Assembly (NCBI GenBank): GCA_003290165.1
Contig: QNQO01000533.1
Coordinates: 620,001-684,000, forward strand
Length of the DNA stretch: 64,000 bases
Direction: 5' to 3'
Source of the DNA: Berberis thunbergii
Lineage: Eukaryota; Streptophyta; Magnoliopsida; Ranunculales; Berberidaceae
Shown here in pieces: positions 17,896 through 56,672 of the stretch (position 1 is its first letter; the number at the start of each line of letters is the position of its first letter). The notes under the pieces were generated by a model. It was not told the DNA's origin. It worked only from the letters and a program-made list of their open reading frames with translations, and did no database searches. A program made the translations under genes and the position numbers.

Positions 17896-18413
17896 TTATC
17901 TCCACCATACTCTTACAGGCAATGAGCATATCGTCAACATAGAGCAAAAGATAAATAAAATCACCATACAAAGTTTTTTCCTGTTTACACAACAATCATA
18001 CTTACTTCGTGTGAACCCATGTTTCAACATAAAAGTGTCAAACCGTTTGTACCACTGCCTAGGTGACTGTTTTAACCCATAAAGTGATTTCCTCAAACGA
18101 CAAACATGGTCTTCTTTTCCACACCTTAAAACTTCCGGCTGATGCATATAAATTCTCCTCTAAGTCTCATGCAAGAAAGTTGTTTCACATCAGTGTTCAA
18201 GCCAAGGTCACCATGAGCTACCAAGCTCAACAACACACATATAGAAGTGTGTTTTACCACAGGCGAAAATATCTCATTGTAGTCAACGTCTTCCCTCTGA
18301 GCAAAACCCTTAGCTACTAATCTTGCCTTGAACTGAGTACCAGACTCTAGAGTAGTCTGTTTCTTCTTAAACACCCACTTGCAGCAATTGCTTCCTTCCA
18401 TTAGGCACGACAC
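17896..18413 (-). pseudogene. copia 2 reverse transcriptase (broken)
   Basis: Minus frames give FKARLVAKGFAQREDVDYNE, FSPVVKHTSI and LNTDVKQ (18126-18413), then CRLRKSLYGLKQSPRQWYKR and the FMLKHGFTRSKYDCCV block (17896-18147). The YVDDML box is present at about 17930-17950 only after a frameshift. The two halves overlap in different frames, so pol was disabled by at least two indels. Confidence 0.88.
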
Positions 18414-18899
18414 TAGATCCCAAGTATGGTCTTCTGGAGAGACTCCATCTCACCCTGCATAACTACTAACCAACTATGACTATCTGAATGACGAGCAGCT
18501 TGCTTGTAAGTAGTTGGCTCATCATCTTCCACGGAGAGTGCATATGCAACCAAATCAACTGTATTCAACTGACCATAGTGCTTCAACGGTTCCTCAAAGC
18601 CAAATTTTGAACTTGCTTAACCGATCGTTTTGACCTAGTTAAGGCAAAGGTTGCTACTGGGATTGATTATCTTCAACTGGTTGTTGTTCCTCATGGTCTT
18701 CAGGCTCATAATTCAGATCATGTGTGCCTGCTTCAACTACTTGTTCATCTGCTGCATCCCAAGACGCTTTAGCTTCCACTTTCTGAGTGTTATTAGATTC
18801 ACCACCACTATCAACCAACTCCTTAGCTTTAGTACAAGCTAACAAGGAATTTCATCAAATTAACATCTCGACTTATCACAAATTTATTATTTTCTAAAC

Positions 18900-19690
18900 A
18901 CCATAGACGATAACCTTCACGCCTTTTGCATACTCCAAGAAAATGGCCTTCTTAGCCTAGCATCAAGTTTATTTTCTTTCACATGGTAGTAGGCAATACA
19001 ACCGAAAACTTTCAGTACACTGTAATCAGCATGTTCACCTGACCACACCTCATAAGGTGTTTTTGCAGTCTAATGTAGAATGTGGCGATCTATTAATCAA
19101 GAAACACGCGGTGGCTATTGATTCAGCCCACCATTCTCTACCACGACAAGCATTGGAGCGCATACAACTAGCTCTTTCAAGCATAGTACGGTTCAATCTT
19201 CAGCAACTCCATTTTGTTGTGGCGTGTTTCTAACAGTCCAATGTCAAACAATTCCTTCCTGATCACAAAACTGTTTGAAAGTACCCTCAGTATACTCGGT
19301 ACCATTATCAGACCACAAAGTCTTCACCTTTCTTCCAGTTCTATTCTCAACCATTGTTCTCCACCTTTTAAATGTCTCAAATACTTCATTCTTGGACTTC
19401 AAAAAATATACCATGTGTAACGGAATAATCATCAATAAAGGAGACAAAGTACCTGGAACCTCCCTTAGAGGCGACCTTCGCTGGTCCCACACATCTGTAT
19501 GCACATAGTCTAGAATACATCTGCTCCTGTGCTTGCTTGTACTGAATTTTACCTTGCATTATTTTCCATATACACAATGCTCGCAAAACTCCATAGTCGG
19601 TTTCTGCATACCCTTCAGTAACCCTTGCTTGCTCAGTAGAGACAATCATTTTTCTGTCATATGCCCAAGTCGCATGTGCCATAACCTAGT
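18900..19690 (-). pseudogene. copia 2 integrase (broken)
   Basis: Minus frames contain GSRYFVSFIDDYS and the surrounding HTDVWGPAKVASKGG block in two frames (19244-19682). NRTGRKVKTLWSDNGTEYTE follows, then a stretch ending near 18950 with the NGVAERMNRT-type region decayed. The acidic residues of HTDVWG and SDNG are visible. Frames alternate within about 60 bp near 19470. Confidence 0.85.
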
Positions 19691-19742
19691 GCTTTCGATG
19701 AAGAAGTTCTCACTGCCACATTTCTGTTACCGTGTTACCCAT

Positions 19743-20057
19743 CTAGGTGTACAAGTTACCTTGTTTGATCCCTTTCATGACAACCAAAGACCCACGGACA
19801 ACCTTTAAAACTCCACCTACCGCTGTAAACTTACAACCATTGGAGTCTAAAACACCAAGTGAGATAAGGTTCTTTTTCAAGGCTGGGACATGCCTCACAT
19901 CAGTTAAGGTTCTCACAACACCATCATACATCTTAATCCTCATTGTTCCAATTCCAACTGTTTTACAAGCGTAATCATTACCCATCAGAACAGTACCACC
20001 ATCAATGTGCTCATAGGTAGTGAACCAATCCCTGTTGGGCACATATGGTAAGAACAC
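19743..20057 (-). pseudogene. copia 2 protease to pre-integrase segment
   Basis: A minus frame holds [20 protein letters not shown], then [14 protein letters not shown] and [18 protein letters not shown], the conserved stretch after the copia protease active site. It is out of frame with gag-protease by one base: the junction CP-NRDW lies near 20033-20040, where one nucleotide appears to be missing. Confidence 0.88.
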
Positions 20058-20968
20058 CCAGAGTCAAGGAGCCATCTCCCAGAGATTTTTGTGTTTTCAC
20101 CCACAAATGAATAACATTCTTCATCCTTTTCCATACTAGATGCATAACTTGCTTCACTAGTATCACCCTTATCTTGCTTTTTCTTGCCCTTCCAACTGTT
20201 ATCATGATTACTCTTACCTTGATTTGGACAATTTTTCCTAATATGCCCCCACTCTCTACATTTGTGACATTGTGGACCTCTAGACTTTGATCTAGATTTT
20301 CCACTATTTGAAGATGATTTCACTTGAGACCTTCCTCTAACAACCAACCCTTCAGCTTGATCTTTCCCATTACCATTTGATGAAGTTTTCTTCCGAATCT
20401 CATTGGACAAGAGTGCACCGGTAGTTTCATCAAATGTAAGTTCATCTTTCCCAAACAAAATTGTTTGTACAAGATTTTCATATGACTGCGGCAAGGAGTA
20501 AAGCAATATAATTGCTTGGTCTTCATCCTCAATCTTCACATCCACATCTCTCAAATTTGAGATAATCCGTGTAAACTTGGCGATATGATCACCAATTGGA
20601 GTGCCCTCATCCATTGCTAGTCTGTACAATTGGGTTTTCAAGTATAACCTGTTTGATAATGTCTTAGTCATAAACTGTGACTCAAGCTTCAACCAAACAT
20701 CAGCTGCCGTAGTCTCTTCATTAACTAAAAAAACTATGTCTCTATCCAGACACAAGCAAATAGCAGCACGCGCCTCCAAATCCAATTCTTCCCATTCATC
20801 ATCTGACATGGTTTCAGCCTTTTTATCCTTCCCTAGTAATGCCTTGTGTAATTTCTGAGAAATAAGCAAATTCCTCATTTGTATTCTCCAATATCCGAAA
20901 TCGTTCTTACCATTAAATTTCTCGATTTCATACTTCCCCACATGTGCCTTGCTCACCTTGGATGCCAT
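20028..20968 (-). CDS. copia 2 gag-protease N-terminal frame (open)
   Basis: Open minus frame of roughly 310 codons; I choose the ATG at 20968 ([18 protein letters not shown]) because the upstream start is TTG. The gag capsid-like region is at residues 1-200 ([30 protein letters not shown]), a basic stretch follows, and the CCHC zinc knuckle is [15 protein letters not shown] at about residue 240. The protease motif [13 protein letters not shown] ends the good part, then a 1-nt loss shifts the frame. It could still make Gag protein, so this copy might supply particles in trans; that is inference. Confidence 0.85.
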
Positions 20969-21115
20969 TGCAAACAAAACCTGTGACTTTCTAGACAAGA
21001 AGCTTCACTAAGGTTTTTTTTTTTTTTTTTCAAACAACTTGTGCACAAACAAATCCTAGCACTTTTGAATCTTCACAATCTTGAGTAGAACAATTCAAGA
21101 TCAATTTCCCTTAGT

Positions 21116-21127
21116 GCTCTGATACCA
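21116..21127 (-). other. primer binding site of copia 2
   Basis: GCTCTGATACCA, the complement of the initiator Met-tRNA primer site, two bases from the 5' LTR. Confidence 0.9.
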
Positions 21128-21129
21128 AT

Positions 21130-21622
21130 TGTTGCGCCTTATTGCGGAAGCGGGTAGACACCAACAATTGCACACAAGTACCACAAGGATCCAATCAATT
21201 AAATAGAGCAACTAGCAATGAAAGAAATTAGAGAAAATTAAGAACATACCACAAGAGACACAAGGTTTACGTGGTTCAGCAATTGCCTACGTCCACAGTG
21301 AGGTGATTCCACTATATTCAAGAACAAGGTACAAGAAGATGACAATTCTCACACAATCTCTCAACAAGAGATGAAACAATTCAAGGAATTATCTTTCTCT
21401 ACTCCCTGTGCATCACAGTTTTTCTACGTGCAATCATCATAATAAAAACACCTATAGTTCCTAGTATATATAGGACAACAGTTTTCTGTTTGGCAGCAGT
21501 TTCCTGTTTCACAGTAGTTTCCTGTTTCACAACATTTCTGTTTCCTAGAATTTATTTCCTGTTCAAAAAACAATTTCAGAAGTCCAAACAGTTTCCTATT
21601 TCAAACAGTTTCCTGTTTCACA
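21130..21622 (-). repeat. 5' LTR of copia 2
   Basis: It starts TGTTGCGCCTTATTGCGG and ends GTTTCCTGTTTCACA. It is near-identical to the other LTR over the R/U5 part; the U3 repeat block is shorter. The same TATATATA motif lies near 21466-21475. Confidence 0.92.
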
Positions 21623-23374: not shown

Positions 23375-23567
23375 TAAATCTAAGAGTGATTCTATGTCGA
23401 GGAAAGGCGAGGAACCAGCGAGGTAAAGATGGCGGGGTGAACCGTTCACCCCCCTCGAGATGCGCGCAAGAAAACATCTCGGGGTGAACGGCATCACCCC
23501 CGCCACCTCGTTTACCTCGCTGGTTTCCTCGCTCTTTCCCTCGACATTAGAATTTCCCTAAATCTAA
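23375..23567. mobile_element. palindromic MITE (Mutator-like), copy 1
   Basis: The element 23384-23558 (175 bp) is an almost complete inverted repeat with arms containing GCGAGGAACCAGCGAGG and its complement. The centre is CTCGAGATGCGCG. Terminal sequences are GAGTGATTCTATGTCGAGG and the complement of GGGAAATTCTAATGTCGAGG. A perfect 9-bp duplication TAAATCTAA flanks it (23375-23383, 23559-23567), the size made by Mutator-type transposases. It lies in the second visible intron of the RHD3-like gene and is much more GC-rich than its surroundings. Confidence 0.92.
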
Positions 23568-26846: not shown

Positions 26847-28148
26847 AGGGATGAACAAAAAATGATCAAACCAGTCAAATCGATGGAACCGAACCAATCT
26901 GAAAAATTCGGTCCGATCTTTTTTCTTTCTATTCAAATCGGTTTAAAAAACTGCAAAACCGACAGGTTCGATTCGGTTTTCAGTTTTGAAGTTAATATAA
27001 TCGAAAAATTGAACCGCCTGAATTATTACAAACATATTTCAAAAATAAATTAAAGTATCATGTTGTAAAGATTTTTTCTTCCATCCTTTCAAATAAGAAA
27101 ATTATACTTAATCTGACAAGGCATTTAATCGAGAGTGAACTAGTTAATTTTACTTTATTCAAAAAATTATTTCTTTCATCCTCTTAAACAAGAAAATAAT
27201 AATTAATCTGACATTGTATTTATGAGAATGGGACCAACATGTGTTGCTTATGCATCAACTTTTGGCACTCATCCGGCAATCACATGCACCTTGCTCCTTT
27301 GCAGTCTTTGAAATGACTCTTGAGAAAAAAACAACTTTGTATACTATTAACATGGGTCAAATCTAATAGGATGGTGAGCCTTTGAAATGGAGAAACCCAT
27401 CTCTTTGATTCAAATAGAGAAAAAAACATAGATGAGGGATGTGTTCCTGTAGGTTGCAGACCCATCTCTTTGGTTGTTGTTCATGTAGAAAAAAATAGAG
27501 TGAAACAGAGTATAAAAGGAGAAGAAGCGAGTTGTGTATTTGGGGGACTCTGAGAGTGTAATAGTTGCTCACAATGAGAAACATAGAGTAAATAACCAGG
27601 AGAAGTAGGGGGTTGGGACAGACCTGTGAGTTGGAATTTTCTTCTTTCTCTTGAGAGAATTCTCTTTTTCCTTTTCAAGTTACCTTTCTTCTCTCAAATG
27701 TTTAGCAAAGATTTCCAAAGCCATTACTGAAGAAAGAGAACTCTAGGCTATTGATGTTTATCAATCGAGTAAATAAACAAAGCTCAAACTGGCAAAGCCG
27801 AAGGAACCGTTCGAATCACTCGATTCGATTACGACTCAGTTAGTATAACAGTTTAGTCAGCTTTGATTTATAGTATGTGAAAACCGATTGAGCTTTTCTA
27901 TGTGTCGAGGGAAAGGGCGAGGAAACCAGCGAGGTAAACGAGGTGGCGGGGGTGAACCGTTCACCCCCCTCGAGATGCGCGTGCGGAAATCATCTGGAGG
28001 GGGTGAACGGTTCACCCCCCGCCACCTCGTTTACCTCGCTGGTTTCCTCGCTCTTTCCCTCGACATTTAGAATTTCCCAAACCGATTATAACGATTCGGT
28101 TGGCGGTTTTGGCCAAAATCGATCCTAACAAAACCATTTTCATTCCTA
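26847..28148. mobile_element. possible hAT-like element with TAGGRATGAA ends
   Basis: The left end TAGGGATGAACAAAAAATG and the complement of the right end (TAGGAATGAAAATGG) look like hAT terminal inverted repeats, and both flanks carry the AACCGA/TTCGGTT-rich subterminal sequence common in plant hAT MITEs. I find no 8-bp target duplication. It includes diverged tandem copies of about 96 bp at 27074-27225 and palindromic MITE copy 2. No transposase coding is visible. Confidence 0.35.
27881..28087. mobile_element. palindromic MITE (Mutator-like), copy 2
   Basis: The 189-bp element (27890-28078) has long inverted arms: GAGGAAACCAGCGAGG, then AAACGAGGTGGCGGGGGTG and AACCGTTCACCCCC, followed by the mirrored arm. 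It is flanked by the perfect 9-bp duplication AAACCGATT (27881-27889, 28079-28087). It is the best-preserved copy in the window and could fold into a stem of roughly 80 bp. Confidence 0.93.
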
Positions 28149-31610: not shown

Positions 31611-32149
31611 AATATGATATGTTGAGTAGAACTTTGTACTTGTGTACTTTTTTGAATTTTCCTGTTGGCTTCTTTCTGTTTCGTTTTATCACGATGTTTG
31701 CTTTTAGACAAGAGGTTTTGCTGAGTTAGAAAAATGTAGGATTAATCTGATGATGAGAGTTTTGACTGCTTATGTTGTGAAAGTTCAGGCAATCCTGGTC
31801 TATACTCTTTAGAGTTCAAGTTGTATCGATCAAGTCTTGTAAGTTAGCTAAACTCCATGCGAGGAGATAATTTTGGCTGGTAATAGATTATTTGAACCAG
31901 GTCGTTGTCAGCTTTTGTGATCTACCATTGTAATTTGCCCTTTGCAGGTAGGCTATAGATCAGACCAGCAGTTGCCGATGCTAATATAAGTGAATTGGCC
32001 AGATTATGGAAGTGGGCATCACTGTAAGTGGTCGGACAGTGGTCCTTGTGGGTCGTCTGAGTTAAGCTTTTTGAACTCTGACTTGACTTTCAAATTGTCT
32101 TTGTCCACTTCTGGGGGACTAGGCTTCAAGTCGCACTGATAGTTATCGT

Positions 32150-33250
32150 CATCAGTCATAACTAACTAAACTTAGGTAAGGCTCGGCGAACATTGCCTGT
32201 GGTTGGACAATGATATCGGGCAAGTCATCGTGATCAGGCATCAAGAGCACTAACTAGACTCCGACTTTCTAAAACATTGTCATCTGATTTTGGCGGACTA
32301 AGCATTAGAATGGACCAAAAGTTATCTTCATCAGTTGGAACAGACTAAACTTTGGTAGGGTCTGGCGACCATTGTTTGTAGTTGGATAATGATCTCTAGC
32401 AAGTCATCGTGATCAGGTGTTTAGAACCATGACTAGACTCCTACTTTCTAATCCATCTTCTCACGCGCTCGTCAGACTATGGTCTTAGAGAGGACCAAAA
32501 ACTATCGTCATAAGTCGGGACTAACTAAATTTTGGTATTGTTCGGAGATCATTGTATGTAGTTGGACAATGATCCCTGGCAATTCATCGTGATCAATCGT
32601 TGAGAACACTGACTAGACTCCCACTTTCTAAGTCATATTCACCCGCGTTCAACAGACTACAGTCTTAGAGCGAACCAGAAGCTATCGTCATTAGTCGGGA
32701 TAGACTAAGCTTTGGTAGGGTTCGACGACCACTGTTTGTAGTTGAACATTGATACCTGGAAATTCATCGTGATTAGGTGTCGAGAATGCTGACTAGGCTC
32801 CCACTACCTAAGCCATCTTCATCCGTACTAAGCAAACTAGCCGTTAAAGAGGACCAGAAATTATCGTCATCAATTGTCAATGACTAAACTTTGGTCAGGT
32901 TCGGTGACCATTATCTATAGTTGGACAATGATCACTGGCAAGCCGTATTTATCAGGCATTAGAGCGCTAACTAGGCTCCCACCTTTAAGCCATCTTCATT
33001 CGCGCTCGGCGAACTATGATCTTAGAGCGGATCAAAAGCTATCATCATCAGTCGAAACTGACTAAGTTTTGATCGGGTTCGGCGACCATTGTCCAAGGCA
33101 AGTCATCGTGATCAGGCATGAGAGTGCTGACTAGACTCCTACTTTCTAAGCCATCGTCATCCGCTCTTGGCAGACTAGGCAATAGATCGGACCAAAAGCT
33201 AGTCATCAGTCGGGCCTCACTAATCTTTGATCGGGCTAGCCTCCGCTTGG
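32150..33250. repeat. tandem array, about 179-bp unit, six to seven copies
   Basis: The anchor TAAACTT/TAAGCTTTGGTAGGG recurs at 32167, 32346, 32526, 32706, 32885, 33063 and, more diverged, 33221. This gives periods of 179, 180, 180, 179, 178 and 158 bp. Each unit also carries an AAGTCATCGTGATCAGG-like block and a GGACCAAAAGCTATCGTCAT-like block. The array lies between the antisense ORF and the next LTR remnant. Tandem arrays in the 3' untranslated part of Tat-lineage elements are known and can seed satellites. Confidence 0.9.
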
Positions 33251-39903: not shown

Positions 39904-40101
39904 GTGAAATCTAAAATGTTCGAGGATAAGAGCGAGGAAACCAGCGAGGAATAAGGAGGTGCGGGCGGGGTGAACCGTTCACCCCTGAGCATGTTTTTGG
40001 CCGGGCCGCATCTCCGAGGGGGTGAAACGGGTTCACCCCCCGCACCATCCTTTCTTCCTCTGCTGGTTTCCTCGCCCTTTCCTCGACACATAGAATCACT
40101 C
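39904..40101. mobile_element. palindromic MITE (Mutator-like), copy 3
   Basis: Same family as copies 1 and 2: arms with AGCGAGGAAACCAGCGAGG and CTGCTGGTTTCCTCGCCC, ends GTGAAATCTAAAATG and the complement of GAGTGATTCTATGTG. The loop differs (GGCCGGGCCGCATC). I find no target duplication, so ends are approximate or the flanks have diverged. Confidence 0.85.
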
Positions 40102-40600
40102 TGATGGCAATGACAATTGACCACCTCAAGTCCTTAAAAGTTAAACTCATCATTACAACTCTATAGGATAGGTATACTAAATTTCGTTTTGTGTCCCTCA
40201 ACTCACATGAGCGTGAAAAATAACACAATCGTTTAGACAAAAGCCCTATTTCTCTCTATCAAACATTCCAACGGGCCATACAACCAATCGACTCCCTCAA
40301 GCTGTCAACAACTCCTTCCTCTCAAGCAACTCATCCTTTTGGTTTCGCCGGTCCTTCTCAAGCAACCATCCTCTGGTTGTGTCTGCTCATTATCTGTAAA
40401 TCTTCAATTAAACTGCTAGTATGAAATGAGAAAGTTGTTATGAGCACATTGGTTCTTGTGTTTAATGTGTTGCTCTATTCAAACCACAAAATAAATCCAA
40501 GTTTGTTCTACATAGTGTTATCTACCCTCAATCTTAGTTGTAGCTTTCACTAGGTTTTTGTATTCAATTATTTTTAGATTTAGGGTTTCAATTGCTGTTA
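40102..40600. other. spacer, no gene recognised
   Basis: AT-rich sequence without a supported coding region. Confidence 0.45.
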
Positions 40601-41989: not shown

Positions 41990-42350
41990 AAACATACTGA
42001 ACTTGAGATCTAAATTAGAACGTCCAAAACACATAGGGGTGTCCTAAAATGGAATAATGAACTTGATATTTGAATTAGGATAGGACACCCTAAACAGGAA
42101 GAGGTGTCTTAAAATAATGTACTTAATCTTAGAAATTAGAACACACAAAACATCGGTGATTCTAAATGGCGAGGGAAACGGGCGAGGGAGGGGGTGTGAC
42201 CCTCCATCCCCCTCGAGATGCGCGCTCATGTGAATCTCGAAGGGGATGGGGGTCAAACCCCCTCCCTTACCCGTTTCCTCACTAGTTTCCTCGCCGCCTA
42301 GCATCACTCCACAAAACATAGAGGGGTGTTCTCTAAAATATGAGAATATA
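41990..42350. repeat. degenerate tandem repeat of about 60 bp
   Basis: Three diverged units alternate words like AGGGGTGTCCTAAAAT, GGACACCCTAAACAG and AGAGGTGTCTTAAAATAA. The third unit is interrupted by palindromic MITE copy 4. Confidence 0.65.
42144..42319. mobile_element. palindromic MITE (Mutator-like), copy 4
   Basis: The element 42154-42309 (156 bp) has mirrored arms (GGCGAGGGAAACGGGCGAGGG and, at the other side, its diverged complement) and the family centre CCCTCGAGATGCGCG. It is flanked by CACAAAACAT on both sides (42144-42153, 42310-42319), a 9-10 bp target duplication. Confidence 0.9.
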
Positions 42351-43293
42351 TAAGACTCCCCACAGTAGATGCATAAGGGATGTCTTTCATTTGTGCCTTT
42401 TCTAAATCATCTTTTGGGTTTTAGAGTAAACTTAACTTACCACCCTTAGCAATGGGTCCATCACCATGTTTACAATTAGAGATGTCAAATCTAGTTAACA
42501 CCATTTCGACATAAGCCTTCTCTGATAAGCCAACAATACCACGTCATCTGTCATGATGAATTTCTATGCCTAACACAAAAGATGTTTTACCAAGATCTTT
42601 CATTTTGAATCTCTTTGAAAGAAATCTCTTGGTCAAGATAAGAAATCTACAAAAAAACAAGCATATGTCATTACTAGCTAGTAGGATGCATCAACATATA
42701 AAACCAGAAACAATAATTTCTACCACTAATCTTACGATAAATAAAATGATCAATCGTATTTTCCTTGAAACCAAATGGGAAAATTACTTGATCAACTTTA
42801 TATACCATTGACGAGATGTTTGTTTTAAGTCGTAGATGGATTTCCTCAATGTGCAAAATATATGTTACGACTCTTTAATCTCAAAACCCTGTGGTTGCTT
42901 CATAAAAATAGTTTATTCAACATTTCCATTCAGAAATGCAATCTTTACATCAATCTGATGTAGCTCTAAATCATAATGAACTACAAGGACCATTATGATT
43001 CTAAGAGTCTTTCGTAGAAACTAGAGAGAAAGTATATTTATAATCAATGTCTTCCTTTTGAGTAAAGCCTTTAACGACAACACGTACCTTATATATTTCA
43101 ATGTTACCTTTGGAATCATATTTGGTTTTAAAAACTCATTTGCATCCATTGGTTTCACCTCCTTAGGTAACTCGACAAGATCCCAAACGTCCTTGTCCTT
43201 CATAGACTTTAACTCATCTAACATAACATTCATCCAATATGAAGAGTAAACACTTTGTTTGGCTTGAAGAAAAGTGATAGGATCATTTTCCAT
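42320..43293 (-). pseudogene. copia 3 reverse transcriptase and connection
   Basis: The minus strand gives LDELKSMKDKDVWDLVELPK with KEVKPMDAN (43021-43293, start of copia RT), then scattered RT pieces in changing frames. Near 42480-42600 a SEKAYVEMVLTRFDISNCKH-like stretch appears, and at 42330-42420 KAQMKDIPYASTVGSL. No continuous frame exceeds about 90 codons. Confidence 0.8.
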
Positions 43294-43849
43294 TTGTATA
43301 TCAAATTCATGCGCATTGAGGATAAACTACATAATCATCCAAATAGAAAATCTCTTCTTTTTATTGGATCTCCTTATTGACATTTGTAATTGAGGAGGTT
43401 GAGGTGCTTCTGGATTAGCATAAGGCAATCCAGCTATATCTTGGTGATTTGCATCCGCATCCTGTTTAAGAAAAGGTATGACCACGTTAATAGGTTGAAT
43501 ATCCATCATGGGAATGTCAACACATTCTTCTTCAAAACTAATATTTCTAAATTGTGTACTCCCACTATTCTAAACATCCTCAAATAAACTTGGCATTATT
43601 CGTCTCAATTAAGGTATTAGTAGAGAAGTAATAAAACTTGAATCCCCTTGATCTTTATGAATATCCAATAAAGTTGCAACTAATAGTTTTTTTAGTCCAA
43701 TTTTCCTTCATGAGGCCAATAAGGCCTAGCCTCAGCTGGCACCCCCAAATATGTAAGTGTCGAATGCTAGGATGTCTACCAGTTCATAGCTCATATAAGG
43801 TTTTGTTGACTACTTTACTGGGTACTCTATTAAGGATATAAACTGCAGT

Positions 43850-44420
43850 CTTTAGGGCGTCTCCCTAAAAAGACTCTAGCAAGGTTAAATGACAAATCAT
43901 ACTCTGAAGCGTGTCTTTTAGGGTCCTATTTCGTCTCTAAGATACACCATTTTGACATGGTGTCCCTAACATAGTATACTGATGGACGGTGCCACATTCT
44001 TGTAAATACCTTGCAAATTGACCTGAACGATAGCTTGAACCATCATATCTACCTTAGTATTCACCACCACGATTAGATCTAATGGCCTTAATTTTCTTAT
44101 TATGTTGATTTTCAACCTCGGCTTATAAGCCTTTAACACATCCAATGATTGTTATTTTTCATGTATTAAGTATAGATACACATCCAATCATTGTGATTAT
44201 TCTGTATTAAGTAAAGATATCCATAGCGAGAATAATCATCTGTAAAAGTGATAAAATACCGTTAACCATTCCAAGAAGCCGTAGGGAATGGTCCACAAAT
44301 ATTGGTATGTATCAAATCTAGGACACCTGAACTCCTATGAGCACCTAGCTTCCTACTGTTTGTTTGTTTATCTTTTATGCATTAAATACAAATCGTAAAA
44401 TCTGTAAAATCAATGGTACC
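43850..44420 (-). pseudogene. copia 3 integrase core (broken)
   Basis: On the minus strand around 44020-44130, EVENQHNKKIKAIRSNRGGE then Y*GRYD and FARYLQECGTVHQYTM are readable in one frame with a nonsense codon. This is the D-x35-E part of copia integrases; the usual RSDRGGEY aspartate is asparagine here. Confidence 0.8.
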
Positions 44421-44899
44421 AAAAACTCCAGTTGACACAAGCCTTTCGATCATCGATCAAGAGATATGACCTAGACACTTAAAATGCTATAACATAGAAG
44501 AGTTCTCATTAATTAATCTTCACTTAGTACTATAATTTATAGCATGCAAAGTTTCATTTGATTGTAAGTGGGAAACATCTAAGTCTAACTTATATAGATT
44601 ATTAATTATAGATCCGGTACCAACAACATTGAAATTTTGTTAGAGACTGAAACTTTCTTTTCCATAAGAAAAAGTATAACTGCATTTATCCAAACTGAAA
44701 ACAGAAATTAAATTCGCCTAAATGACGGTACACAAACAGTCTCATCCAAATCAAAACAAAAACCAGACTCTAATTTTAATCCAAAGACTTTGATTGCCTC
44801 CACACAAGCTTTATTGTCATTCCCCCATGTAAATGAACCTTTCAGTATCATTTGGTTTCCGACTACTTATGCAATCACGCATGGAAACACTAATGTGAA

Positions 44900-45810
44900 T
44901 AGTTGCACATGTTTTTATCCATCAGGAATGGCGTGGTTCCTCAACTAGATTAAATTCAAAACTAAAATTATCACCTTTCTTTGCGAGCAAATTATGATAT
45001 TTGAGGCAATTCTTCTTCACATGACCCACTTTCTTGCAAAAGAAACATGTGGCGACCTTATCATGTTTATGTTGCACAATTTTCTGTGAAGTCCCATCAG
45101 ATGCAGTTCCCTTGGCTTTAATAGAAATATTTGTTTTCCTTTTCTTGATTCCTGATTTTTTTTATTATTATAGATGTTCATCTTCTTGCACACACTAAGA
45201 AATGAGTTCATTAAGAGTCCATTTCTCCATATGAGTATTATAATTAATCTTGAAGGGACCAATATGTAAAGGAAAAGAAATAAAAATGGGGTGTATATGG
45301 AGATCATCCGAAAACTCAAACTTTAGTGTCCTAATTTTGGAAACAAGATTAGACATTTCCATTATGTACTCCCTTATATTTCATTTGCCAGTATACCGCA
45401 TGGTAACAAGTTTGCTAAGAAGTGTACTTGCCTCCACCTTTCCGATGCAACAAATCGGTATGCAACCTGGCGTAGGAAATCTTTAGCATTTTCCTTCTTA
45501 GGCATGGCACCACAAAAAGTTTCAGAAATTGAGCGTTTCATTATCATAAGACTAATGCAATTAGAGCGCTCCCACTTTTCATAAGAAGCTTTATCTTCAA
45601 CTGAACTAGAATAAGTAAGCTTAGTGGGTGCATTGACACGAAGCGCGTAATCCAAATTCATACACCCAAAAACGAACTACTATATGTTTTGTCCATTTTT
45701 CAAAATTTAATCCATTAAGCACTGAAATGTTGTTTAAGTTGACAGATATCGAAGAAGAATTTACTAAATAACACAAAAGAAACAAACTCACAGTAAGATA
45801 TATGTACACC
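44900..45810 (-). pseudogene. copia 3 gag (broken)
   Basis: Minus frames give VLNGLNFEKWTKHI (about 45690-45720), then DYALRVNAPTKLTYSSSVED with KASYEKWERSNCISLMIMKR and ISETFCGAMPKKENAKDFL (45374-45661). A CHC-type knuckle remnant lies near 45000-45050 (KVGHVKKNCLKYH in a shifted frame). This is the typical DUF4219/UBN2 gag of plant copia elements. Confidence 0.8.
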
Positions 45811-45830
45811 CATCAACCGTAAAACAATGA

Positions 45831-47346
45831 TATGATAACAAAAAAAATAACAAGTAATCATTATCATGCAAAATTTAGTCTAATTAAGGAGAAAACAAAT
45901 AGACAAAGAGCAAAAAATAGTACATATAAATTTACATTTTTAATAATGGGCCCTTATGATAAACCGAGCACACCATTACAATTCAGGTCTGTGGATAGGC
46001 ATGGTAACATGTAAGTGGTTATCTTAAAACAACTAAGGCTAATTAATTTAAACAAAATAAAATCGAGCTTGGCCAAACAATAACCTTCCTTTTGGCTTAT
46101 CACTGAATGCATTAGTAAATCTCAATAAAAAAATTTACTTAAAATTAACTACCTTGGACAGTCCATAAATCGGCCAAAATAAAAATCTTCATTTGGGCCG
46201 ATTTTTATTTGCATGGGTCATGATGCAACCATATGTAATCCATTCAAATATTAATCTGAAATTTCAATTCAAATAATATTTCATGAATGAGGTCACTTAG
46301 GCGATGTAGCAAAAAATTTCACCTAAAGATAAGTTTTGGATTGCTAATTAAAATATTCTTCAAGTGCTCGTAAAAATTCCTTAAATGTAGGAGTAAAGAA
46401 GGCCAAAAATTGCAATTGTTCCAACACAAGAAACTAACATACCAAACATGCCAAAAATTGGTCCAAACAGTTCTGAACCGGTTCACCGGACTGAACCGAT
46501 CCAATTGGTCAAAACAAAATCGGCCAAAGTGAACCGAACCTATCAAATTCAGCAGAAAATGACCCAATAGGACCCAACAGAAAATCAACCCAAGCCCAAA
46601 AGGCCTTCATCTTCTTCACCTTATCTCTTAGATTTGAGAAAAAAAACAAACAGAAAAAATAGGAAAAAAAACTGAAGAAGGTCGATCAAAAGACAACCCA
46701 GCTCGTGCCATCGATGCAATCTCTGACACTTAAAGCCTTTCCATCCCGACGAAAACACTCAACTTCAACCCAGCAGAGCCAAAACCCAACACATCCAACA
46801 ACGGAATGACTGGCTGAGCAACATCATAACTGATGATCAAATGGTTGGGTTTTGATCAGCACCGGAGGGATGAAGAGAGGTCTGATGTTGGTTAGAACTG
46901 ATTATCGAAGGATGAGGGAGAGGTCTGACGTCGATCAAAGGTAACTTTTTTTTAACAGTAAAGTCTGAAAAAAAATTTACGATGTCAGTTCTAACTATCA
47001 TCGACCACCCAAAATATCCATATGGGGTCGATCAGCACCGGGTAAATCACAATCTAGTCGTCGGGAGAACTAGATCCGGTGAAATAAATTTCTATGGTTG
47101 GGTAAACACGTGAGGATTGATTAATTAATCAAGCAATAAAAAACATATGTTTTCTTCAATGATTCTGCGTACTTGACGTAGCCGTTGATGAAGAGTATCC
47201 TAATAACAATCCTCACGAAGTAGCAACATGCAACAGGAAAATCTTCCACCTCCAGAACCTTCTCTTGTGTTTCTCAAAGCAGATGGGAAAAGAAGGAGAT
47301 AGAGAATTTGGTTTGAAGTGAGATCTCAACCGTATATATAGAACCC
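45831..47346. other. flank of the CACTA insertion, no gene recognised
   Basis: AT-rich DNA that may include the 5' LTR of copia 3, but I could not delimit one. A stretch at 46455-46545 contains GAACCGG/CCGGTTC words common in plant MITEs. No coding region is supported. Confidence 0.4.
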
Positions 47347-47369
47347 TAACACTACACCAAAAATGGCCA

Positions 47370-47505
47370 TTAGCAACGGTTTTAAACCGTGGGGGTAACC
47401 CATTGGCACGGCTTAGAACCGTGGGTTGTAGAGGCGTCGCGAAATCATCTGTAACGGCTATAACCGTGGCTAAAATTTTAGCAACGGTTTTAAGCCGTGG
47501 CAAGT
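47370..47505. repeat. left subterminal palindromes of the CACTA element
   Basis: Four copies of an AACGG(T/C)TTT...CCGTGG motif (about 47375, 47398, 47453 and 47481). Such subterminal repeats are the presumed binding sites of the CACTA TNPA-like protein. Confidence 0.85.
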
Positions 47506-47721
47506 ACTAGTACAAAAGTTGCATTTGTTTTTTTTTTTTTTACTATCAAATGACTTTTATTATATCTTATAGGTAAGTATAATTCAACACGTGCATCAAT
47601 TCTTACATCAGGTAAGTAAAATTTAATACGATTTTTTATTAAATTTAAAAACAGCATTTACAACCTCTGATCAACAAATTCCAGCAATTCATTACAGCAG
47701 CAACATTTACAATTCATTAAA

Positions 47722-47945
47722 AGAATGTGGTCATTTGGGAGAACAACAAAACTTGATGCCCTGCTCTATAGAGTTTGGGAAGCAAGCGATCAAGTAGCTC
47801 AAATTTTCCTAAGGCTCTCACGTACGATCTCCTTCTTGTTCCAGATGTTATGTTCGGTAGTACAAAGGTATGGGTGGTTACAACACTTGCGAAGTTGCAT
47901 TGACAGATTCTGGAGAATCTTTGATTTCTCAGATCCTATACATAA
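47722..47945 (-). pseudogene. captured SNF2 chromatin-remodelling ATPase fragment
   Basis: The minus strand reads [20 protein letters not shown], then [12 protein letters not shown]. After a 1-nt shift it gives [20 protein letters not shown] and LFSQMT. This is the junction of the two helicase lobes of SNF2 ATPases, closest by eye to the plant CHR12/CHR23 (MINU) type, where the text [12 protein letters not shown] is characteristic. About 70 residues of a protein of more than 1000. The fragment is at the 3' end of the captured series. Confidence 0.8.
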
Positions 47946-48358
47946 GTGCCACATAAGTAACGAGGACGCATACCTTTTCCATGCACATATAAATCAAGGA
48001 ATACAAAAACATCAGAGGCACAAATTTAATCAAGTCAAGGGAAAACAATCTAAAAAATGAAGAAAGTTAAAAATAATAACCACATTATGTCCCAATGAAC
48101 TCTCAGTTATAATCTGCAAAAGATGAAAACTCAAATATTGTGGTCTTTGTGGTGATTGGAAATTAGTAATTTCCTTATGATCTCCAACTTTTCATCTCTA
48201 GTTAACTCTATGGACCATCTAAAGTGAGTGGTTCAAATGAAAAATAAAAGCATTGATATTTTAACCGTTAGTTAAAAATTGAGGTAAGAATTAGATAGTA
48301 AAATTTGATCTCAAATGCATAAAATATGGCAAAAAATAAAAAGGTGCCAAGGGAATAC

Positions 48359-49328
48359 CTCTGGAGGGTCGAATTTAGCCCCCAGGTTGCTGAGTGCCGC
48401 ATGTGCTTCAGCATAGTCCTTGAAAAATGCATCTTGATCTACTGCATATTTCTCAGCATATACCTACAGTATAAGAACATGTCATGCCCCCAAACAAGAT
48501 TGTATATTACATCCCAGAGCTTAGCAATAAACCACACAAGTAACAAACTTATTATCTTTACCTTGAATGATGGATCTTCAAACAGGGCAGCATCAGTCGG
48601 TAAAACCAACAAATCTTCGTCCCTTTTCTCTTTGATATCCTGAATGTATCAGTTATCCGCAGCATGTTAAGACTGATAAAGGGAAAGTATTATTTCATAT
48701 AAAAGAAAGAAAATACACCTACGCTGAAATAAGAGTTGTCAAATTTCAACCACTTGGCAGTCCATGACTGTCCTCCTGGTGCTCCAGGACCATCGTTCTA
48801 TCATGTCATTAAAAACAAAATAAGTGGAACGTTATTTGCTGTGAACCATCTTACTAGTTACTACGTGGGTAGCAGAGATATCTTCAGACAAGTGAATTCT
48901 GAAAAATGAGCCAAAGCTTAAATCCTTTATTTCTTGAAAAATACAAAAGGCTAGCAAATGAGAAGGAACTAGTAACTTAGTAAGAATTGTTCAATGACTA
49001 CTAAACACGATCTTTAACCAAAAAAAAAGACTACTAAACACGAACAATACAATGATAATTGATGATTTTTAGCAACATACTGTGTATTTAGTTTCTGGCT
49101 TGCCCCAACCGCTGCGTTTTGGTCTGGATCTCCCCAACGTGTGCGCACCAGATAATGCAACTATTTCCTATAAACAGCTGTAGGTTAAGTTGCTAGAAGC
49201 ACAATTAAAAATAATCATGAAAAACACAAAATTAAGTATGGAGCATGATGGCAAAGTAACCTTGTCACTTAAACCCATTCGGTAGAAGACATCACGTAAA
49301 TGACTAGCAGGTGAAGGCAGGCCAGCAG
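48359..49328 (-). pseudogene. APX-like: captured ascorbate peroxidase fragment, five exons
   Basis: Five exons with GT-AG borders: 49261-49328 ([20 protein letters not shown]), 49081-49167 ([20 protein letters not shown]), 48723-48797 ([20 protein letters not shown]), 48562-48639 ([20 protein letters not shown]) and 48359-48463 ([20 protein letters not shown]). This is the C-terminal half of the peroxidase domain of a chloroplast-type (stromal/thylakoid) APX, including the proximal haem histidine in SGAHTLG. The distal histidine region, transit peptide and C-terminal end are missing. Introns are kept, so the copy was made from DNA. The exons I read are free of stops. Confidence 0.9.
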
Positions 49329-49329
49329 C

Positions 49330-50500
49330 TGAAAATAAACCACAATTTTCCAAACTTAGTTGTCACAAACAGTTGTAAATGAACAAGTCATGCCCAAATG
49401 TAAAAAGTACTAGTTTAAACAATTCAAACTAGCAGTGCGTCTGGAGTATATGATCCATTAAATGAATTGAAACATTCACCTGAAAATCATTCATTAGCAC
49501 AAATATGATTTGTCTAACAAACATAGTTATCAAAAACATTTATTGTATCATATTTTGGAGAATGGCTGCATTCTTTTGTTTAACAAAACAAAGCAAGAAA
49601 CAACAAACTTTAAACTGACTTGCTGCTTTCTAGCTAAAGCAAACGCTCCTTGCCCATAAAACATAGCCACCTGCTCTATTTTTCCTCGAAACAAACACAA
49701 CAGACCTGCTGTGTTTTTCCTTGAAAAAATAGAGCAATTGCAGCCAATTCCTCTGCACCTGCGCCTTGCACCTTCCAGCCATCGCTGCTCTGTTTCTGAA
49801 CAGAAACAGAGCAAAACAACTTTGTCCCAAGCCAAGACAGCACCTTGCCAGGACTCTTTAATGAGAAAAATGCATAAAGATAATAGTATACAAGAAAAAT
49901 TACCATTACGAAAGGAAATGGAGGTATATTATATAGAATAACGGACTTAGGATAGGAAAAGCCATTACCTCAACCTCAATTGCTCAAACCTTCCATGGTT
50001 AATCATTTCAATAAAATCCTTGATGAATGGGAGATACGCGCTTTCACGCATCTCGAGGGGGATGAAAGGCTTCACCCCCTCCCTCGCTGGTTCCCTCGCC
50101 ATTTAGAATTTCCCTTTAATAAGTGTCACTTTATCCATGCAATATTACTTGAAATGTGATTCCCAATGGTTACTACATAATATTCCTACTCACGGTCTTA
50201 CTGTCCTATCCAACCTTAGCATTACCTACTCCATATTAAACTCCTCCACGATGAACTTATCTTGTGAACATTAAAACCTTACCACTTCACCTAGACATTC
50301 TGTTTTTCTTTTTCTTTCCTTGCCAGCCTTTAACTGCCAACGTTATTTTTTCATCAAAGTAGAAGACGGTAACATGTTCTGTATGAAGAACCAAGAGCAG
50401 AGAAGATAAAGCATCAGAGAAGTGAGTAGTTGGATGCTTAATCACCAACAGAATGCAATCATCTCCTATAATTTTATTGTGGCCATACCTTCAAAACAGC
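49330..50500. other. junction between APX and GrpE fragments
   Basis: No coding exon recognised. It contains a stretch at about 49550-49860 with no known match and the truncated palindromic MITE (copy 5). The junction of the two captured genes lies somewhere here. Confidence 0.5.
50024..50114. mobile_element. palindromic MITE, copy 5, truncated
   Basis: It contains the family centre (GCATCTCGAGGGGGATG) and the right arm (CCCTCCCTCGCTGGTTCCC, then TCGCCATTTAGAATTTCCC). Most of the left arm is lost. It lies within the CACTA element between two captured genes. Confidence 0.8.
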
Positions 50501-51091
50501 AGCAAACTGTTCATTCATTGGATCGTATTTCTCCACTCCATACTTCCTGAATACCTGAGAGGAGGCATTCTCAAGACTTTAGTTTCTAGAATATACTCTA
50601 GAATTTATATATAGAATTAACGACATACACAAAGAAATGATGCAGAAGTTACATTTTTTTAAGACAAGGCAAAACAATAAAAAAAAAATTAATTATAGGG
50701 AGCTAGAGTGAGAAATTCTCCCCTTCAAAGAACACCCAATACAAAAGATAAATATCTTTTTTTAATCTAAAATTGGGGCTTAATGGACCACATTTTATCC
50801 ATCCATTAACTACCTTATACCAAACTACTACAGGCTACTATGTACATCGTAAAATACCAAAGCAAATACTACGTCACCTCAGCAAGTTGCTTGTTGGTCA
50901 TTTCAACACCTTCTAAAAGTGTTTTCAGCAGTGGAACAGCACCAGCAGAGTCTTTTGTTTGATCTATCTTCGAAAATCTATCTTTAACAACTGCTAAAGC
51001 TCTTCCTAGATTGTCAGCAACATCTAATAAGCTCTTTGCAAAGTTCTGCAGCATTTACGAGAAGTAAGATTTCAAGAGTAAGTAATAATAA

Positions 51092-51123
<32 letters not shown>

Positions 51124-51475
51124 CAGATATTTGATACAGATCATGGATAATTCAAGAAATTCTAACCTGGATGGCAATCTTTTTGGAGTTCTCTGATTCT
51201 ATTCTTGTTCTGTCCATTATCGCTAGCGTATCTGCATAGCCCCTGAGAACACTATCTTGCATGCGATTCATCTCCGCACGCTTATTCTTGAACAAGTCTT
51301 CCTTCACAGTCAGAAGAAATTCTAATTTGCGAATGTATGCTTCTTCCTTCTCACGTTTGGCTTCTGCACTAGCCTTTGGGGTCTCCTCATCGGTAACAGG
51401 TGCCTATCCATCAGCAGGCTTGTTTGTCTGTTTCTTAGACGGTAACGAAGGCCAATTTTGTGAACTAGTGGTATC
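50500..51475 (-). pseudogene. GrpE-like: captured mitochondrial-type GrpE fragment, three exons
   Basis: GrpE is the nucleotide exchange factor of mitochondrial/plastid Hsp70. Exons on the minus strand: about 51167-51471 (PSLPSKKQTNKPADG, stop TAG at 51404-51406, then EEAYIRKLEFLLTVKEDLF, the long coiled-coil part); 50878-51045 (NFAKSLLDVADNLGRALAVV then KDRFSKIDQTKDSAGAVPLL, exact phase); about 50490-50555 (VFRKYGVEKYDPMNEQFAAV). The C-terminal beta domain that contacts Hsp70 is missing. The in-frame stop in the first exon means no full GrpE could be made. Confidence 0.9.
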
Positions 51476-52714
51476 AAAAATTAGATAATTAAATAAAGTC
51501 GCCTACAAAACAAAACAATATAATGTCAAACACTCCAATAAAACTAAACTCTGAGAATTACTTTTTGTCCAATTTATGGGCAACAAATTTATGCTAAGAG
51601 AACATTACTTTCAGTACTTTAAAATGAAACTAAAGTTATGTGAATAGCCTATCTATTTTCTTGATTAAGTTGCATTACCAATTCTACAAGGAGAAAAATG
51701 CAATAAGGTAATCATTCTTACCTGCTCAGGTCAGTATCTGAAGATGGATGGAAGTAGAATAGCAACTTCTGAAGAAGAAGGGTAACCACTTTTCTATTGG
51801 GTAGCCACCTATTACGTATAGAAAATTTAGTGACCTCAAATATCTCATTACATTAAGCGAACTAGACACAAAGTTTATACACAGTTCATCTGATCTTTAA
51901 GTACGGGGCATCCACAAGGGATTGAACATAAATTTGTTCATATCGTAGCATGGAGCAATCTAATAGGTTTTTGTTTATTCCAATCTAATTGTATTGATTC
52001 CTACATGCTTCCACCATGCATTACAGTTATAGATGGTTGATCATTAAATAGGAAGCAAATAAATGACTATTCCATCACTTTTACAAATTAGCACATTGAG
52101 TACCTCAGTTATTTCATATATAAATAGCCAACATCAGCACATTCACTAGGTCGTAATTCACCCATATGAACAAGTTTTGTTCCCTAAGTGTCTACCTCAA
52201 CTATGTATATTGACAGTTTGCAAAACAGATCATACTCTAATATTGCAACCATGGAGTCCATTTTATCATAATACAAAAGTGCTCCATTTGAGTTTCAATA
52301 GGAAAAAAAAAAAAAAACTCTCATAAGTAATATGTTCAGCAGTAACTTTTCTATTTAATCTTGATTCTCAGTATGAAAAGTTGAAAACATATCAAATAGG
52401 CACCAAAACAATGAAGCAAAGTAGGTAGGTAATATACAGCTTATAGCATAAGTAGTCAATACTGAAGACCAGCATGTCCTATAAAAGAAAGGCAAAAAAT
52501 AAGAAAGGGAAAAAAACCTCTAAAAGAGAGGTGAAGGATGTGAGCCGGGGGTTACACAAATTACCACCATCCATTCAATATTTGACACAAGCCCTCTTCC
52601 AATTCAAAAAGACAAGCTTCGAGTTTCATCCATAAAGCTTTAGCTTAGAACAAATTTACTCGAAAAATAGAGAGAGAAGATGCAAATTAAAATGATTTAT
52701 CCTTGTTTAAATAC

Positions 52715-52960
52715 CTCATTATGTTTCAACTTTTCTAGTGTAAGCTCTTGGTTTAAACCAACCATCCTGCACAGAATACAGGGAACGCAAAAAAGGAGAT
52801 TTCTTCAAATAATATTTTGTCTTCTGTCATCAGTAGTTCATATATCCTAAAGATGAAAAAATTTCAACTAAGCTACTTGATCTGCACCAGTAATGACCTA
52901 CCTGGCCTGTAGTTCTGCAACCTTGAGAAGCAATACTCTCTCTCTTTCAGAAACCTCGGC
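52715..52960 (-). pseudogene. two unassigned coiled-coil exons in the CACTA element
   Basis: Two short exons with good splice borders (52902-52960 and 52715-52766) join in frame into 37 residues: AEVSERERVLLLKVAELQAR then MVGLNQELTLEKLKHNE. The composition and leucine spacing suggest a coiled coil. They lie between the MetE and GrpE fragments, in the same orientation. They could be an upstream GrpE part or a separate captured gene; I cannot assign them. Confidence 0.6.
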
Positions 52961-53120
52961 CTGCCCAAAAAAGAAATAAAATAAATCATAATTATCCTCT
53001 TTTATGACCTTTACATAATTATCCTCAGAAATCTGAAAATCGGATTAAGTGTTAGTGGAACAGAATTGCTTGAAGCTGAAATCATGAGGTCAACAGATAA
53101 TATTGCTAGAGATCACTCAC

Positions 53121-55226
53121 TTGTTTCCCTTGAATTCACGGCGGACTCTCCTAAGGTCAGCAGTCTGAGGGAAAGACCCAATGGTCGTGGTTGGGAGGAT
53201 TGGAAGGTTTAACTTCTTCTGCTGAGCATCCAATCTGGCACTCACATTTGTAGTTCTGCGGTGATCAGAGCCCTTCAAAGCAGCAGCCTGAGCAAATATA
53301 GATAGTAAAGATTAGTAAGCATGAAAAGTTGTGAAACAGTAAAATACAAAATATCCTCAGATCACTTACGGCTTTCTGAACGCCCTCATTTGTCACCCTT
53401 GGGGAGGATTTTCTTGAAGCTTGAGCAGCAGCATTAGCAGAGAAAAAAGCATGTCAATATAGCAAATACAGTGAGACAAACACAACTATATTTATTCGTT
53501 GTTCAGTATAATTATAAATATTTATAGATCTGGGTAAATCAAATTGCCAAGTCCCAGTATGATAGCATGCACTATAGGGTCCGAGGTTCTTAGGAAAACA
53601 TCAAAGTGACATTAACCACCATACTGAACAATTATAGGGCCATAAAATTTGATTGATGCATGCCAACAACAAACATACAAAAATAGAAACTTTGGAACTA
53701 AAGATAAGAATGGATACCTCATCCTTTTGGCCAGACAATGCCTTCGCCAAGGTGTTCACTTCAACAACCTTCTGTGCAGCAAATGCAAGCCATGATTTGA
53801 TTTCATCATCTAGCTTTGTCTCGTTGATCAAATCGACAACACTGTGGAGGAGTGAGCATGAGGTGGAAACCACCAACTTGTCTGAATAGGATAATTGATA
53901 TCATGATAAATCAGTTCAACCTGATTGATTAATAAAAAAAAACTAGTGCATTGTGTCTCTAGGATGATTACCTTTGCCCACAATGCCTACGAGAGTCTGA
54001 AGGGTACTGACAGATGCAGCAAGATCATTAGCCCAGATATTCCTTCCATCAACCACACCAGCAAAGAGGTATTTGTCCGAAGGGAATCCACCTTTAATCA
54101 GATCAAAGGTTTGAGTCCCTCGAACCAAATCAAACCCTACTCCTGTAACACCCTTCAAAGAAGTGACTGTCTTGTATGCCTCAGTTGGAACATCAGCAAA
54201 GTATGTCTCAATGATAACATTAAGACTAGACATAATTGATTCTAGTTCAGAATAGGCCTGAGTAAATGCTTGAAGTTGGTGAGCCTCAAGATCCAACACT
54301 AGGGTGGGCTCATCAAACTGAATCCAGGAAGCATCGGCAGCCTTCAACTCAGTAACTACTTCCCTGCAAAAAATGTGATCATCATTCATTAGTTCTAACT
54401 AATTGGAGTGGGCATACTAATAAATATAGATAGCAACACTCATGGGCAGACTTACTTGTACACTGGAAGAATGCTTCTGAGAAGGGAGAGAAGAGAAAAG
54501 GATTTCTCTACACCCTTGGCGGGCTTTGATAGCAACAAGTAAGAGACAGGGCCTACAAGGACTGGGACGGTCTCAAAGCCAAGCTGCAAAACAGAAAGAA
54601 GGAAAGATTTAAGGAGACTTAACCATTACCAAGTAATATCAACATGGCATAGCTCTACCATTACAATTCGACTAATAATAAAATTCCTGAGTGCACATAC
54701 CGCCTTGGCCTCTTTGTATTCATTCACTGCCTTGTGGGAAGAATAAGTGAACTTGGTCTCTGGTCCCAACTCAGGGACACTGAAATGGATGCATCAATTA
54801 GAGCCCAATTAATACACAAAACTCCATGGATCAATGAAACTTGTTTGAAATTATGAAAAAGGATATCATCACTTACTAGTTGGTGTCGAACCACTTGGTC
54901 ATTTCCATAGCAGGTACAGAGGCATTTCCTCTGGCCATGGAGAAGTAGGTGTGAAACCCAATCTCACCACCAGTCCAGTTGTATATGGAAGGAACAGCTC
55001 CGATCATCGCTGTAGCGTCAAGCACTTGATCATAGTATGAAAAGGTGTTGCTGGGGATGTACTTGATCCCGACCGAAGCCATTTGCTTCCAAATGGAGGA
55101 CCTGAGATCAGCAGAAACCTTCTGCAAATCCTCGGCAGTGGTCTTGCCATCCCAGAAAGATTCCAAGGCGAACTTGAGCTCTCTTTTGGGGCCCATGCGA
55201 GGATATCCAACAATATGTGATGCCAT
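53121..55226 (-). pseudogene. MetE-like: captured MetE (cobalamin-independent methionine synthase) fragment, seven exons
   Basis: MetE transfers a methyl group from methyltetrahydropteroyl-glutamate to homocysteine. The minus strand starts with [20 protein letters not shown] (ATG at 55226). Exons are 54877-55226, 54701-54788, 54456-54583, 53972-54363, 53718-53881, 53370-53450 and 53121-53287. Phases agree throughout and cover about 458 of some 765 residues: the N-terminal barrel ([35 protein letters not shown]) and linker ([18 protein letters not shown]). The C-terminal barrel with the zinc and homocysteine sites is absent. Two acceptor sites read AT where AG is expected (before 54788 and 53450). 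The other borders are canonical and no stop interrupts the exons. Confidence 0.93.
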
Positions 55227-56460
55227 TTTTTTTGGTTCACATCAAGAAAAAAAATCAAAATCTCATGGTACCCAAACAAGTAATTGCAAAAAAAATGTTG
55301 CATACGAATTACCCCCATTGTGAATGCACGTGTGATTGTGATAACCAAATTCAGTTCAATTGAGTTTCTCCAAAATAATGAAAATCAAAGAGTTGAGTGG
55401 ACGAGTATCGAATGGGGTGGGTGTTTCACTTGTATTAGTACATTATAAAAACTGAAAACACATTTAGAAAGCACAGGAGATCCGCAAAAACAAGTTTGTA
55501 GGAATGAATCTAAACAAGATCTCCATAGATCTTTAGTAATTGAATGAAAAATAAGAGTTTCAGATCCATCTCAATCTCTATCTAGTAAAGTATGTGTGAT
55601 GCAAAGAAGAAACTGAAGGGGATTTAACGAAAACAGATGTTGGAAACCTACAATGACAAGTTGGGTGGGATCTCTGAGTTAAGATCAGATCTGAAATTGT
55701 TCAAAAAGATTACACTAGCAGCATTACTGAATTGAAAATCTTTTATGACATAAAGATGCAAAAATGTAAAGTAGCTCTAAAATTACAAAGAGTCTCCCTA
55801 AATTTTTAGAAATCTGAAACTTGCACAAATAGAACATAAAGCAATGCCAATCAATCCATCGAAACAAACACCGAAATTGCAGAGATTGAAACTAGAAAAT
55901 GTAACAAAACAAGAATGAAGAAGGTGTTAGTTAAGCAAACCTAAGTTGTGTCTTCATTTCATTCAAGCTAACTAAAAATTAGTACAAAAAAGCAGAAAGA
56001 TAACTCAACGATTGATCGTTCAGAGCATAGATTGAACTACATTCACTTAATCGAAGCTAAAAATCACACACATTAGAGAGCTTAAGAAGGAAGATCTAAA
56101 CAAGCAGATAGCGATCTTTCAAAGAAAACTTACGAAGTCTAGGGTCACAGATTGAAGAACCGATCCCTAGAAGAAGAAGTTATCTCTGTCTCGCCTTCTA
56201 CACTCTTCGTATTGCCTTCTCGACCGACTACTGCTCCTCCTCGACTTCTCCCTCTCTCTTTCCTTCTCCTTCTCTTTCTCCTTCTCTCTTTCCCTCTCCT
56301 TGAAATTTTAGGGTTTGAAGCAAATTATGGGTTGAAAATTGCAGAGTTGGGGGGAGATGGAGCGGGAACGCAAAGCAGGAAGCAATTTGTTTTCGCAAAA
56401 TTTTGCCCGCGAGAAATCGACTTACTTCTCCATACGTCCACGTGCAACACACGTGCACTT
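55227..56460 (-). other. leader region of the captured MetE, probable 5' UTR introns
   Basis: Upstream of the MetE ATG there is no coding sequence, but a polypurine minus-strand leader (56225-56310) and a donor-like CTTC|GTAAGTTT (about 56130) suggest a 5' UTR exon followed by an intron. Plant MetE genes often have such leader introns. Whether the promoter is captured is unclear. Confidence 0.45.
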
Positions 56461-56669
56461 TTGCAGCGGTTTTAAGCCGTTGGGCACTATAGCCACGGTT
56501 TTTAGCCGTGGCAATCACACCAACGGTTTAGAACCGTGGCCAAGCCTTTTTTTAGCCACGATTTTAAGCCGTTGAGCACTATAGCCACGGTTTTTAGCCG
56601 TGGCAAACACACCAACGGCTTAGAACCGTGGTCACCCCTGTGTAGCTAATCAGGCCTTTTGGTGTAGTG
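56460..56669. repeat. right subterminal palindromes and TIR of the CACTA element
   Basis: Six CCACGG(T)TTTTAGCCGTGG-like motifs lie between 56463 and 56632, followed by the TIR ending GGCCTTTTGGTGTAGTG at 56669. They mirror the left subterminal block. Confidence 0.88.
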
Positions 56670-56672
56670 TAA

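Follow-up and report, generated by a model that had tools for sequence, protein, structure and literature searches.

A likely Pack-CACTA element of Berberis thunbergii carrying pieces of at least four host genes on one strand

A 64,000-nt stretch of the Berberis thunbergii genome (contig QNQO01000533.1), referred to here as the window and the source of all position numbers below, contains a CACTA-type transposable element in which pieces of several host genes lie side by side. The limits of this element were read directly from its flanks, and it spans 47350-56669. The bordering letters are CCCTAA/CACTAC on the left and GTAGTG/TAACTC on the right; because TAA stands on either flank (47347-47349 and 56670-56672), we assign TAA as the target site duplication (TSD), which makes the element exactly 9320 bp long. 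A motif search placed its 13-bp terminal inverted repeat (TIR), CACTACACCAAAA, without mismatch at only two positions in the entire window, 47350-47362 on the plus strand and 56657-56669 on the minus strand. When up to two mismatches were allowed, four matches were obtained where 2.69 are expected by chance, the remaining two of the four each carrying two mismatches, so that evidential weight resides only in the perfect inverted pair. Repeat analysis together with motif scoring showed that short palindromes of the AACGGTTTTAAACCGTGG type are restricted to the two ends of the element, at 47371-47503 on the left and at 56461-56634 on the right, where they form an 89-bp unit present twice. Subterminal repeats of this palindromic type are among the features named for CACTA elements (PMC8978399). 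The element thus combines inverted TIRs that begin with CACTA and a 3-bp TSD, as in the CACTA (En/Spm) superfamily, with host gene fragments between the TIRs, as in Pack-CACTA or Pack-TYPE elements.

From right to left, the interior holds fragments of MetE, two small exons for which the searches gave no match, and fragments of GrpE, ascorbate peroxidase and an SNF2 ATPase, all of them on the minus strand. MetE was captured from its start codon (55226) as seven exons and a truncated eighth; its match to 1u1h, a solved plant MetE, reaches 2.2e-252. Exon 1, with the start codon (54877-55226), and exons 3 (54456-54583), 4 (53972-54363), 5 (53718-53881) and 7 (53121-53287) are placed by the exon model and the 1u1h match. 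Exons 2 (54701-54779) and 6 (53370-53450) have the same basis and are those in which the expected AG acceptor reads AT; exon 2 was modelled with an in-frame AG that lies nine bases beyond the expected site. A tblastn search in which the Thalictrum protein P0001 served as the query revealed the truncated exon 8 (52994-53032). Identity to plant MetE proteins reaches 88%, with the best matches in Thalictrum and Aquilegia (87-88%); over the same columns, Thalictrum MetE is 0.89 identical to that of Dillenia and 0.91 identical to that of Stephania, so that the protein matches by themselves, those of GrpE included, point to a flowering plant and to no narrower group. The minus-strand region 55227-56458 is presumed, by eye and from its position only, to represent the MetE leader and upstream region.

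The two small exons (52902-52960 and 52715-52766) have GT-AG borders. A protein search with an artificial query for them, confined to targets of 0.55-1.75 times its length, gave 51 candidates with none at E<=1, and two further homology searches, including Pfam, found no match. We rejected their assignment to GrpE, as they have no match up to E 10 among the 120 GrpE matches listed. GrpE itself is represented by three captured exons, which match the Pfam GrpE family (3.6e-21) and plant mitochondrial GrpE proteins spread over the angiosperms (identity up to 75%, covering 78% of the query). Exon 1 (51167-51403), the left part of which is weakly conserved and the acceptor of which is inferred, and exon 3 (50504-50554), which is broken off within the exon, were placed by tblastn and a splice check, and exon 2 (50878-51045) by Pfam in addition. 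Joined, they give 152 open codons, with AG/GT borders kept up to the break at about 50504. A premature stop in exon 1 was considered and dismissed, since the TAG in question fits an acceptor (ATAG ahead of the exon), a reading that leaves the joined frame open.

The ascorbate peroxidase fragment matches the chloroplastic enzyme 1iyn at 1.9e-81. Its five captured exons (49261-49328, 49081-49167, 48723-48797, 48562-48639 and 48359-48463), placed by this match and a splice check, are each preceded by AG and followed by GT, and together they form 137 open codons. The SNF2 piece (47733-47935) contains a frameshift; when joined over it, the piece matches SNF2-family ATPases at 2e-14, and the similarity ends at about 47733. 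An earlier note, made from the DNA letters alone, had proposed one complete CACTA element of 9320 bp in which at least four unrelated host genes are represented by fragments in one orientation, and the perfect TIR pair, the TAA duplication, the end-restricted palindromes and the four sets of protein matches agree with that proposal. Its three GrpE exons and five peroxidase exons could all be placed. The seven MetE exons were likewise borne out, but the truncated eighth had been missed, and the SNF2 identity stood while the frameshift had been overlooked. Two exons that the earlier note left unassigned, and for which it gave no coordinates, are probably the two small exons described above.

MetE is more damaged than the peroxidase and GrpE fragments. 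Besides the two altered acceptors, the modelled join of exon 7 to exon 8 loses the frame and meets a stop after 7 codons, and the join of exon 7 to the two small unmatched exons meets one after 24 codons. Over 271 columns in which 120 listed relatives show at least 97% constancy, the fragment deviates at 7 (median of the relatives 1, maximum 9); the constant columns were derived from these same relatives, which favours them, so that the decay of the MetE protein sequence is mild at most. The observed/expected CpG ratio is 0.33 in the MetE exons versus 0.55 in the window, a pattern that methylation decay would give.

We consider it likely that this is a non-autonomous member of the CACTA (En/Spm) superfamily, of the Pack-CACTA kind, in which repair filled the interior with DNA copied from four or more host genes. 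The ends, the TSD, the gene identities, the kept introns, the common strand and the lesions form the directly observed part of this explanation. Pfam detected no transposase family in 10 of the 67 minus-strand and 10 of the 32 plus-strand open reading frames (ORFs) of the element. The minus-strand ORFs scanned were of at least 35 amino acids and were picked as likely exons, four of the ten showing MetE or GrpE domains; those of the plus strand were of at least 50 amino acids, and none of the ten contained any domain at all. Because the fragments keep their introns, capture took place from DNA, and capture by way of a spliced RNA is excluded. Such an element could have arisen from an older CACTA element in which a break or excision gap was repaired, its interior being filled meanwhile with copies of other loci that short matches may have linked through template switching, and the transposase of an autonomous relative would then have moved the finished element to its present site. 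Template switching guided by microhomology is a published capture model for animal TIR elements, in which 190 Pack-TIRs (67.6%) have microhomology at one or both breakpoints (PMC8277862). A review also states that there may be an undiscovered route by which pieces of unlinked genes are captured (PMC13317346).

The break points bear on this proposed repair. At the MetE break, exon 8 continues to AAAGAGGA, after which GAGGATAATTATG recurs from 27 bases upstream, creating a 13-bp direct repeat with two copies 27 bp apart (52987-53026, minus strand). The arrangement looks as if an end had re-annealed and undergone extension before it moved on to the next template. A second direct repeat, of 10 bp, lies beside the SNF2 break (47685-47719, copies at 47685 and 47710). 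Direct repeats of at least 10 bp thus occur no more than 40 nt from two of the three exon-internal breaks, which randomly placed points equalled in 0.9% of 20,000 trials. Judged after the fact, the repeats at the MetE and SNF2 breaks are weakly suggestive of what template-switching repair would leave.

Several observations weigh against copying by repair or against the evidence assembled for it. The break-repeat test was devised after the MetE repeat had been noticed and covers three breaks only, and with repeats of at least 9 bp random points do as well in 5.5% of trials. The GrpE break has no repeat of at least 10 bp within 40 nt. A 15-bp direct repeat, its copies 33 bases apart, lies in a peroxidase intron (48996-49043), away from the mapped breaks, and indicates that close direct repeats also arise apart from them. 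The absence of a transposase is based on 20 of the 99 listed ORFs, the minus-strand ones preselected as likely gene exons. Self-comparison found no donor copy of the captured genes elsewhere within the window, and neither donor loci, sister copies nor an autonomous partner were seen in these 64,000 nt.

Stepwise fusion is the alternative that survives best, and we regard it as rather unlikely for this element. According to this model, nearby CACTA copies at various loci are mobilised together by their outer ends and enclose the intervening DNA each time; it has been published with maize and rice examples, and close pairs of hAT and PIF elements in those genomes are mostly co-oriented (PMC8903248). 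Fusion of neighbouring CACTA copies might leave relics of their ends between the fragments. We searched for such relics with a weight matrix of the subterminal motif, using 30 block shuffles as the control. The best inner score was 12.1, and the best scores of the shuffles averaged 10.5 and reached 17.0 at most, which gives no internal CACTA end, whereas the 18 top matches (scores 20.2-28.8) are all terminal; as the terminal palindrome at 47452 scores only 6.6, a diverged internal relic could escape this detection. The interior also contains no TIR match with fewer than three mismatches. Fusion of neighbouring elements therefore gains no support from internal ends, and the fragments that stop inside exons and the filler-like repeats at two of the three breaks speak against it as well. 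On the other side, internal ends deleted at a later time would likewise leave no relic, so that the same result is compatible with fusion.

A narrower version of copying by repair would place all fragments in a single episode, in which copying kept to one direction and switched templates serially from gene to gene. We regard this version as unlikely; the successive captures inferred in the earlier note would fit this single copy as well. If true, the one-episode version would account at once for the common strand, the filler-like break repeats and the missing internal ends, and it would be a different route from the stepwise fusion that is currently put forward for Pack-CACTA elements.

The common strand raises the question of whether the fragments act together. 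The earlier note had suggested that a transcription-compatible orientation was favoured. Four fragments fall on one strand by chance with a probability of 2 x (1/2)^4 = 0.125, and five with 0.0625, so that the common strand alone needs no selection for orientation; the five fragments of the soybean CACTA element Tgm-Express1, spliced together, provide a precedent (PMC1947982). It is very unlikely, in our view, that the element is a working chimeric gene, transcribed from the MetE leader, with its captured exons spliced and the message kept by selection. Consistent with such a gene are the single strand of every fragment, the splice sites and open frames retained by the peroxidase and GrpE exons, and the splicing of Tgm-Express1 fragments into transcripts (PMC1947982). 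Against it stand the two MetE acceptors that lack AG, the frameshift in the SNF2 piece and the joined frame, which ends 7 or 24 codons past MetE exon 7 and makes a useful fusion protein unlikely; none of the models tried kept a single reading frame across the captured exons. A chimeric transcript starting at the MetE leader, raised in the earlier note, is still conceivable, but the damaged acceptors and early stops count against a useful product. Most likely the element carries its gene fragments passively. Transcription from the captured MetE upstream region, if it occurs, would yield an aberrantly spliced RNA rather than a useful protein.

A pair of unrelated insertions was rejected, as was an ordinary gene cluster, because the TSD, the TIRs and the subterminal repeats agree across both ends; a segmental duplicate or gene cluster flanked by chance insertions of CACTA ends is likewise extremely improbable, given that the entire block is enclosed by a single TAA duplication, a single TIR pair and a single family of subterminal repeats and that the MetE, GrpE and SNF2 pieces are each severed within an exon.

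The stretch separating GrpE from ascorbate peroxidase contains other sequence. Self-comparison of the window identified part of a dispersed repeat resembling miniature inverted-repeat transposable elements at 50041-50115, similar to three other places in the window. This family has long inverted repeats, with fuller copies at 23383-23561, 27896-28081, 39906-40102 and 42174-42278. A minus-strand ORF at 49968-50102 was rejected as a host exon, as about half of it is the dispersed repeat and the remainder has no match. Two hairpin-forming inverted repeats lie at 49672-49813.

Retroelements are found outside the element. Retroelement domains were detected in 4 of 10 scanned flanking ORFs (from 34 of at least 110 amino acids): a reverse transcriptase, an integrase (below the cut-off) and two types of gag. 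A pair of direct repeats, each about 490 bp long and 94.9% alike (16313-16806 and 21129-21615), enclose a copia-type gag ORF (19988-21004, minus strand) and mark a long terminal repeat retrotransposon at 16313-21615. By eye, the minus strand of 42400-47349 resembles a decayed copia element, and a TATATATA stretch of that strand lies some 10 bases downstream of the CACTA element. A satellite-like tandem array occupies 32144-33093 (unit of about 180 bp, 5.3 copies, 74% matches).

Pack-MULEs and gene-capturing Helitrons also carry host gene fragments, sometimes several, but the Berberis element differs from them in its CACTA-type ends and 3-bp TSD. MULE TSDs are about 9 bp long, and Helitrons, to our knowledge, have none. 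Within the CACTA superfamily, the Tpn1 family of Ipomoea nil (Japanese morning glory; 339 copies, mean 7,081 bp) is also non-autonomous, with conserved TIRs, subterminal repeats, 3-bp TSDs and an interior replaced by host sequence, but its TIR is 28 bp (PMC5105172). Pack-TYPE and Pack-CACTA elements lack a transposase and, like the present one, enclose gene pieces between TIRs; the examples described in section 9 of PMC8903248 carry one or two pieces of 58-280 bp, compared to four multi-exon fragments here. Our literature search for a similar element in Ranunculales gave no lead. The main value of the Berberis element would lie in the question of mechanism: fusion of neighbouring copies has been put forward as the capture route of plant TIR elements, yet here there are no internal ends, and filler-like repeats stand at two of three breaks. 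Its closest counterpart is Tgm-Express1, a 5.7-kb element in the soybean wp allele with five unrelated host-gene fragments, some with introns; splicing joins the captured exons to one another and to those of F3H (PMC1947982). This splicing implies that its fragments lie on one strand, the word orientation being absent from the text consulted. Both are CACTA elements with multiple unrelated host-gene fragments that include introns; the Berberis element involves other genes in another plant, is 9.3 kb long, lies outside any recognised gene and is known from DNA alone. A multi-gene, co-oriented CACTA element is therefore less unusual than the earlier note had held. With this precedent, the Berberis element belongs to a known kind, the multi-gene Pack-CACTA, to which it adds a well-delimited member with three closely placeable exon-internal breaks.

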